Below the pieces are notes generated by a model. The model worked only from the letters and a program-made list of their open reading frames with translations. It searched no databases and was not told the origin of the DNA. Position numbers and translations under genes: made by a program. DNA of 64,000 nucleotides from Streptomyces cavernicola (GTDB lineage Bacteria > Actinomycetota > Actinomycetes > Streptomycetales > Streptomycetaceae): contig NZ_JASCIQ010000002.1 in NCBI RefSeq assembly GCF_029968035.1, positions 248,001-312,000 on the forward strand, written 5' to 3'. Shown piece by piece: positions 12,529 to 44,107 of the stretch (position 1 is its first letter; the number at the start of each line of letters is the position of its first letter).

Positions 12529-13410
12529 ATGGACCAGGCGCCCGGCAGTCCGCAGGAACCGCAGGGCACGTCCGGCCTGCCCGGCTGCTACCGGCATCCG
12601 GACCGCGAGACGGGTGTGCGCTGTACCCGCTGCGAGCGTCCGATCTGCCCGGAGTGCATGGTCAGCGCCTCGGTCGGGTTCCAGTGCCCGACGTGCGTAC
12701 GGGAGGGCTCGGGCACCGGGCACGCGCCCGCGGCGAACCAGCCGCGGACCATCGCGGGCGGCGCCGTCGCCGCCGACCCGCGGCTGATCACCAAGATCCT
12801 CATCGGCCTGAACGTCGCCGTGTTCGTCCTTGTGTCGGTGAAGCCGGAGCTGGTCAGCGAGCTGTTCCTGGTGGGCGGGGCCGCGTACCTGCCGTGGGGC
12901 GTCGCGAGCGGTGAGTGGTATCGCCTCGTCACGTCGATGTTCCTGCACGAGGAGATCTGGCACATCGCCTTCAACATGCTGGGCCTGTGGTGGCTCGGCG
13001 GTCCGCTGGAGGCCGCGCTCGGCCGGGTGCGGTACGTGGCGCTGTATCTGATCTCCGGCCTCGCCGGCAGTGCGCTGACCTATCTGATCGCCTCGCCGCT
13101 GCAGCCGTCGCTCGGCGCTTCGGGCGCGGTGTTCGGGCTGATGGGGGCGACGGCCGTGCTGATGCGCCGCCTCGACTACGACATGCGGCCGGTCCTGGCG
13201 CTGCTCGCGCTGAACATGCTGTTCACGTTCACCTGGTCGGGCATCGCCTGGGAGGCGCACGTCGGCGGACTCGTCGCGGGTATCGCCGTCGCGTACGGGC
13301 TTGTGCACGCGCCCCGCGAGCGGCGGGCGCTTGTGCAGTGGGGGACGTGCGGGCTCGTGCTGCTGCTCGTGCTCGGCACGGTGATCGTCCGGAGCGCGCA
13401 GCTGAGCTGA
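12529..13410 (+). CDS. Rhomboid family intramembrane serine protease with N-terminal zinc finger
   Basis: This 293-aa protein cleaves membrane proteins within the bilayer. Residues 17-60 form a Cys/His-rich B-box-like zinc finger (C-Y-R-H then CTRCERPICPEC and CPTC). Six membrane segments follow. The catalytic serine is in GASGAVFG and the catalytic histidine in WEAHVGG, and HIAFNMLGLWWLG is the conserved HxxxN region. The ATG at 12529 follows GAGAGTGAGGGG; a longer frame from 12490 would run over the ribosome site. The substrate is unknown. Confidence 0.92.
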   Translation: MDQAPGSPQEPQGTSGLPGCYRHPDRETGVRCTRCERPICPECMVSASVGFQCPTCVREGSGTGHAPAANQPRTIAGGAVAADPRLITKILIGLNVAVFVLVSVKPELVSELFLVGGAAYLPWGVASGEWYRLVTSMFLHEEIWHIAFNMLGLWWLGGPLEAALGRVRYVALYLISGLAGSALTYLIASPLQPSLGASGAVFGLMGATAVLMRRLDYDMRPVLALLALNMLFTFTWSGIAWEAHVGGLVAGIAVAYGLVHAPRERRALVQWGTCGLVLLLVLGTVIVRSAQLS

Positions 13411-13429
13411 GACCGGCTGCTCCGCCGAC

Positions 13430-13760
13430 CGCCTTGTGGCCCCTGTGGATCCCCTGTGGGCTCCTGTGGAGAGCCGGGGACAACCGCTTCGTTCACCGCA
13501 GGTGGACGGTTGTGCACACACTGTGGCCGAAGTTGTCCACAGCGTGTGGCGGATCTTGTGCACGCTGTGGGGAACAGCAGTGCCCCTTGTCACTGACCTG
13601 GGTTTTCCCAGGAAGGACAAGGGGCGTGCGATGTTCCAGGTGGCGGCGTTCCGGTCCTACCGGCGTCAACGTCGCGGGGGTTATCCACAGATCTTCTTAG
13701 TTTTCCGCAGCTGTGGAAACGGCTGTGGATAACTCAGTGGATAGCTCGGGGCAGGACTTG
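13430..13760. promoter_or_regulatory. Cluster of DnaA boxes in the rhomboid-crgA gap
   Basis: The 383-bp gap between the convergent rhomboid and crgA genes has no ORF worth calling. It holds three strict DnaA boxes: TTGTCCACA at 13533-13541, TTATCCACA at 13681-13689 and TGTGGATAA at 13724-13732 (opposite strand). Weaker variants are scattered around them, such as TTGTGCACA at 13510, TGTGGAAAC at 13712 and several CTGTGGG/CTGTGGA words at 13435-13470. TTGTCCACA is the preferred Streptomyces box. S. coelicolor has published extra-origin DnaA-box clusters near oriC (H69, H24, D78), and this may be the equivalent of one of them. Confidence 0.75.
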
Positions 13761-13793
13761 CGTCCCAGGGGCCGAGCGGGGTAGTTCAGCGCC

Positions 13794-14051
13794 CTACTTC
13801 CACTGCGTGGAGACGCCGAAGCCGGCCGCGATGAAGCCGAAGCCGACCACGATGTTCCAGTTGCCGAGCGCCTCGACGGGCAGCTTGGTCTCCGTCACGT
13901 AGAAGACGACGATCCATGCCAGGCCGATCAGGAACATGGCCAGCATGACGGGGGCCACCCAGCCACGGCTGGTCAGCTTGATGTTGGCCGCCTGCTTCGA
14001 GGAAGGCGGCGGCGTGTAGTCGGCCTTCTTGCGGATACGTGACTTCGGCAC
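13794..14051 (-). CDS. crgA: Cell division protein CrgA
   Basis: This 85-aa protein is the full family length. A basic N-terminus ([15 protein letters not shown]) is followed by two membrane helices ([19 protein letters not shown] and [14 protein letters not shown]) and a very short C-terminus ending in TQWK. CrgA is known in Streptomyces to inhibit or coordinate FtsZ-ring assembly during sporulation septation, and in mycobacteria it is part of the divisome. It is divergent from the DUF881 gene and close to the pknB/pbpA/rodA division locus. Its 3' side faces the DnaA-box cluster. Confidence 0.95.
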
Positions 14052-44040: not shown

Positions 44041-44098
44041 GTCCCCCCGCCTCTCTACCATGGACGTACTGCGTCTATCCCAGGCTGTGGAGAACCGT

Positions 44099-44107
44099 TT
44101 GTCCACA
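44099..44107 (+). promoter_or_regulatory. Strict DnaA box in the bkd promoter region
   Basis: TTGTCCACA is accompanied by a one-mismatch inverted box, TGTGGAGAA at 44086-44094. TTGTCC could alternatively be a -35 element for bkdA. Confidence 0.55.

Follow-up and report, generated by a model that had tools for sequence, protein, structure and literature searches.

Results

Within the window, that is, the whole 64,000-nucleotide stretch of Streptomyces cavernicola DNA that was analysed, a rhomboid-family gene (12529..13410, plus strand; PF01694), whose product is up to 96% identical to the rhomboid proteins of named Streptomyces loci, converges on crgA (13794..14051, minus strand; PF06781), which is SCO3854 in S. 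coelicolor. The stop codons of the two genes delimit an intergenic gap of 383 bp (13411..13793), and the whole of the element described here lies inside it. Taking TTRTCCACA as a strict DnaA box, we found three in this gap: a left box (TTGTCCACA, 13533..13541, plus strand), a middle box (TTATCCACA, 13681..13689, plus strand) and a right box (TTATCCACA, 13724..13732, minus strand). These are accompanied by a near box with one mismatch (TTGTGCACA, 13510..13518, plus strand), which is not conserved in the alignment, and by weaker boxes with two mismatches, including TTGTGCACG (13556..13564, plus strand), of which the TGTGCA core is conserved, TTTTCCGCA (13701..13709, plus strand), GTTTCCACA (13712..13720, minus strand) and CTATCCACT (13736..13744, minus strand), the last lying 12 bp past the right box. 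Near the place of the weak box at 13701..13709 many other genera of the family carry TTTTCCCCA or TTATCCCCA, and several other genera have a strict minus-strand box 12 bp after the first, comparable with the weak box at 13736..13744.

The gap holds 14 sites with no more than two mismatches (three strict, one with a single mismatch and ten with two), whereas 300 dinucleotide shuffles of the same sequence gave 1.5 on average and never more than 6, and three strict boxes were reached in none of 20,000 shuffles. This bears out the initial annotation, which had described three strict boxes and several near-matches in a convergent gap of this length. The gap between dnaA and dnaN (both genes Pfam-confirmed), which is oriC, is about 18-19 kb away and contains two strict boxes, as read from the box list; the cluster lies outside that gap and so does not have the position of oriC. 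With several boxes outside oriC, in numbers beyond chance, the gap has the sequence make-up of an extra-origin DnaA-box cluster.

Boxes were also scored genome-wide, a check that had been proposed. The whole assembly (8.35 Mb in 100 contigs) contains 89 strict boxes, compared with 9 matches to the reversed pattern, and a reading of the assembly list shows three strict boxes within 300 bp at only two places, this gap and positions 151413-151711 of contig C13 (G000:C13:151413-151711; L082:1413-1711). The second of these, some 90 kb from oriC, lies directly downstream of a prephenate dehydratase gene. Contig C13 (396 kb), which carries oriC and makes up about 5% of the genome, holds 24 of the 89 strict boxes. 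In the 63,617 bases of the window outside the gap there are five strict boxes; four are single (27592, 28286, 36576 and 41320), and at 44086-44107 a strict box faces a one-mismatch box within 22 bp.

Conservation within the genus was assessed in 81 loci, namely the best 80 of 586 rhomboid relatives together with the window. The gap could be delimited in 78 of them; the loci left out (L005, L016 and L019) carry an inversion that is described below. At least three strict boxes were present in 77 of the 78 gaps and two in the other (L017), and each of the three inverted loci also keeps its boxes, so that the loss of boxes from this locus in relatives, named beforehand as the observation that would speak against a DnaA site, did not occur. 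Altogether the 78 gaps contain 246 strict boxes, compared with 3 in the 498,994 bases surrounding 77 of them. Taken with its flanking bases, the left box (GTTGTCCACAG) is identical in 67 of the 78 gaps, and the middle box, likewise extended (GTTATCCACAGATC), in 73. The cluster is thus conserved at the same locus in related species.

The spacing of the boxes is constrained as well. In all 73 gaps with an exact middle box, a strict minus-strand box follows within 110 bp, and the distance between the two is 29-33, 42-45 or 53-56 bp with no values between, across 58 distinct spacer sequences. These groups are 11-12 bp apart, near one helical turn, and the best-fitting period, 11.5 bp, was also the longest one tried. 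None of 2000 trials with random spacings matched this degree of grouping, a result that is inflated by relatedness, since the test counts related species as separate.

Two further features share the gap with the boxes. Between the box groups lies a hairpin without a T run (13582..13625, no strand assigned; z -6.45 for the fold of 13570-13640), which is perhaps a terminator for both genes and which was not called by terminator prediction. When hairpin segments from 69 Streptomyces gaps were folded singly (nine gaps being skipped), 36 had z < -2; RNAalifold found no pairs in the hairpin columns, and none of the three Rfam matches lay in the gap or reached the gathering score. Conservation of the hairpin is lower than that of the boxes. 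The second feature is a conserved non-box motif, GTCCTACCGGCGTCAAC (13654..13670, plus strand), which is represented by GTCNNAYCGGYGTCAAC in 64 of the 78 Streptomyces gaps. Of 61 Streptomyces genomes, 31 have a single copy of its form GTCACACCGGYGTCAAC and the other 30, including the genome of the window, have none. Among 30 such sites that were retrieved, crgA was nearby in 28, and the other two were inverted loci.

Two regulators were considered for this motif and rejected. BldD recognises the pattern tnAC(n)6GTnA, which fits 53 of the 78 Streptomyces gaps (shuffle mean 3.77). For MtrA, the available text of PMC13189361 gives GtnAcC-n5-GTnAcn, and the corresponding search pattern GTNAC-N6-GTNA fits 50 of the 78 gaps (shuffle mean 2.13). 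Both were set aside because the window copy, GTCCTACCGGCGTCAAC, does not fit the BldD pattern and breaks the first half of the MtrA site, and because other families carry a palindrome instead.

To follow the boxes beyond the genus, we used a class sample of 197 genomes, 190 of which encode a recognisable CrgA. In 20 loci from the same family (18 from other Streptomycetaceae genera and two from Streptomyces), the gap contained at least two strict boxes in every case and at least three in 16, and the set includes loci in which another gene, or no rhomboid gene, adjoins. One of the Streptomycetaceae gaps (L102) contains repeated GCGTCCACAGC units. Outside the Streptomyces family, 72 genomes were picked by hand from the 197, with one to eleven per family and a bias towards long or single contigs. 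A box with at most one mismatch lies within 300 bp downstream of the crgA stop codon in 63 of these 72 genomes, with at least two boxes in 54 and at least one strict box in 46, and 25 of the 27 families have at least one genome with a box beside crgA. Nine genomes (G122, G144, G145, G162, G179, G206, G210, G228 and G301) have no box of this quality within the 300 bp, which indicates that the class can do without the site. In one genome, three crgA matches of equal score and alternating orientation fall within 20 kb (G102:C1:3954921-3975045), the product of a local duplication or else of faulty assembly.

This association was compared with the surrounding DNA in 40 control loci, each at most 20 kb long (36 from other families and four from the same family), with oriC masked only where dnaA and dnaN were both in the locus, as was the case for two. 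The crgA regions contained 96 boxes (8.0 per kb), against 127 (0.164 per kb) in the rest of the loci; for strict boxes the figures were 40 (3.33 per kb) and 11 (0.0142 per kb). At least one box was found in the crgA region of 37 of the 40 loci, and in 29 this region outscored every other 300-bp window, with ties in four. Among the neighbouring pairs listed, three spacings recur, namely 10-12 bp for plus-minus pairs (23 pairs), 12-13 bp for minus-minus pairs (23) and 12-13 bp for plus-plus pairs (17), while at least 17 pairs have other spacings. Searches of an open-licence library turned up no account of boxes next to crgA throughout the class; two papers that name both mention crgA and DnaA boxes apart, in those portions of their text that were available.

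The distance between crgA and dnaA varies widely across the class. Boxes are kept beside crgA where the gene lies 178 kb (G270), 124 kb (G225), 100 kb (G244), 95 kb (G215), 71 kb (G279 and G289) and 68 kb (G261) from dnaA, and, assuming circular contigs, at about 131 kb (G157) and 127 kb (G204). Boxes are missing beside distant crgA genes in G210 (85 kb), G301 (95 kb), G228 (123 kb) and G145 (about 128 kb from dnaA), and the same occurs at close range, as in G122 (18 kb from dnaA).

The three inverted Streptomyces loci separate the boxes from their usual neighbour. In L005, L016 and L019 the block to the right of the cluster (crgA-sortase-pabA) has been inverted, probably in a single event in one clade, so that sortase genes now face the cluster, and each locus nevertheless keeps three strict boxes. 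The displaced crgA could be placed for two of these loci, L005 being the exception: L016 and L019 match genomes G303 and G321, in which the gene is found some 5 kb away, its 3.2-kb locus being free of DnaA boxes with one mismatch or fewer. An intact cluster that crgA has left, together with a boxless crgA at these two loci, speaks against control of crgA there. In addition, a scan of 13300-13900 of the window for sigma-70-like promoters, the one type it covered, gave no hit. The absence of such a site and the persistence of the cluster without an adjoining crgA in one clade both fit a stand-alone DnaA site, in keeping with the earlier view that this is something other than a promoter.

In many families outside Streptomyces, the last DnaA box beside crgA continues into a palindrome that resembles AATnACAnnnnTGTnATT. 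The exact pattern occurs none to five times per genome and is present in 92 of the 197 class genomes; the reversed pattern was not found. A first palindrome matrix, built from 28 sites away from crgA and used with a threshold of 8, reached this score in 24 of 40 crgA regions, against 5 of 2523 other tiles. In Streptomyces none of the 78 gaps reached 8 and one reached 4, and the best score in the window was -10.3, so by this measure the window does not carry the palindrome. Of 30 palindrome loci that were retrieved, 14 share a DUF3263-type gene, five a WhiB-type gene and two lie at crgA, the other nine having no assignment; three calls of each of the two gene types were confirmed by Pfam.

A second matrix, built from the crgA sites alone and used with the same threshold of 8, found the palindrome upstream of the DUF3263 gene in 29 of 30 loci (for example at L161:1501-1518 and L149:1501-1518), compared with 2 of 460 control tiles, the 30 loci being the best-scoring of the class sample and not a random draw. 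Upstream of the Streptomyces DUF3263 gene it was found in none of 29 loci. The mere presence of DUF3263 was useless as a marker for the palindrome, given that 192 of the 197 class genomes have the domain. Away from crgA, no DnaA boxes accompany the palindrome in the 30 DUF3263 upstream regions or at the 28 other sites. The NCBIfam match of the DUF3263 protein is the nucleoid-associated protein NapA, with a score of 158.2 against a cut-off of 160 for the one full protein tested; a Streptomyces fragment scored 85.4, far below the same cut-off. In the Protein Data Bank, two related chains carry the name Fis family transcriptional regulator. The simplest reading is that the NapA-like protein would regulate its own gene through the palindrome, which, found at both DUF3263 and WhiB-type genes, appears to mark a small regulon that looks to be unreported. 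An open-literature search on the DUF number found it named in one paper, on a cyanophage. That the Streptomyces non-box motif descends from this palindrome is only a guess.

Discussion

The arrangement, density and conservation of the boxes lead us to favour, with some reserve, the view that this conserved cluster, about 19 kb from oriC, binds DnaA and holds or inactivates it, thereby restraining the initiation of replication. DnaA might bind the boxes cooperatively, all from the same side of the helix, and because the site would be copied soon after oriC fires, DnaA-binding capacity would be added at just that moment. The cluster could act either by sequestering DnaA with high affinity or, like datA, by turning over DnaA-ATP. 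Since it accounts for 3 of the 89 strict boxes of the genome, mass titration by the cluster alone would be small, which makes a high-affinity or datA-like mode the more plausible.

The retention of boxes beside crgA outside Streptomyces even at 68-178 kb from dnaA is more than a site valued for its closeness to oriC would need, and counts against this explanation. It is one of the observations that would follow if DnaA instead acted in cis on crgA, binding past the stop codon to block or release transcription and so tying septation to replication, a reading that also accommodates the boxes within 300 bp of the crgA stop codon in 63 of the 72 genomes from outside the family and their retention where another gene, or no rhomboid gene, adjoins. 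We regard it as unlikely, given that L005, L016 and L019 keep three strict boxes without crgA and that crgA in G303 and G321 has no box in its 3.2-kb locus, although these cases probably represent one event in one clade. It is also rather improbable that the site is mainly architectural, with DnaA, in other families together with a nucleoid protein, folding or marking the origin region: in many families the boxes directly adjoin the palindrome shared with the gene for the NapA-like nucleoid protein, yet this palindrome is unrecognisable in Streptomyces, with no gap out of 78 at the threshold. That the gap has no role beyond those of terminator and spacer and contains its boxes incidentally, as the strong hairpin between the box groups might suggest, is very hard to credit when box conservation and density lie far above shuffles and surroundings and the hairpin is the less conserved feature.

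Restraint of initiation by bound DnaA thus remains our preferred reading of the cluster in Streptomyces. On its origin we can offer a more tentative proposal, which may well prove wrong: the cluster could be one form of an ancestral element of the class, made of phased DnaA boxes beside crgA and fused in many families to an operator for the NapA-like (DUF3263) protein. That protein would control its own gene and a WhiB-type gene, DnaA and the protein on a single DNA site would couple initiation with division, and Streptomyces would have kept the DnaA half while the operator decayed.

Extra-origin clusters have a precedent in the genus. Smulczyk-Krawczyszyn and colleagues reportedly described three in S. 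coelicolor in 2006, H69, H24 and D78, and D78 is said to be bound by DnaA and to raise initiation when deleted. Cosmid SCH69 presumably covers crgA (SCO3854), and by this cosmid name the cluster in the window is probably the counterpart of H69; SCH69 in the sense of a cosmid was not found in the open literature. The three S. coelicolor clusters are likewise near oriC and contain several DnaA boxes. What differs here is the tracing of the locus across the class, with its spacing groups, the test provided by the inversion and the palindrome of other families. The other triple of strict boxes in our assembly, on contig C13, could possibly be D78 or H24, which is a guess.

Further afield, datA of Escherichia coli, which lies at a tRNA locus, is likewise an extra-origin cluster of DnaA boxes. 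The boxes described here lie at crgA instead. In PMC5742627, the S. coelicolor clusters are called analogous to datA, and the DnaA-box clusters (DBC) of Bacillus subtilis, which are also chromosomal and belong to another phylum, are described as repressing untimely initiation. At datA, IHF is needed and DnaA-ATP is hydrolysed (partly after PMC5742627). The oriC of S. coelicolor itself has 19 DnaA boxes, according to PMC3411110. Streptomyces origins use the same boxes on both strands; the cluster differs in lying outside the dnaA-dnaN gap and in having three strict boxes against the two of its own oriC.

How DnaA is restrained in actinobacteria is, to our knowledge, largely open. That 25 of the 27 families examined have kept boxes next to the same gene points to a very old control site, and in Streptomyces the cluster offers a 250-bp target for mutation. 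Through the palindrome, the site is connected outside Streptomyces with a nucleoid-type protein that has been little studied and with a WhiB-type gene, and this tie would make a link between replication and division directly testable.
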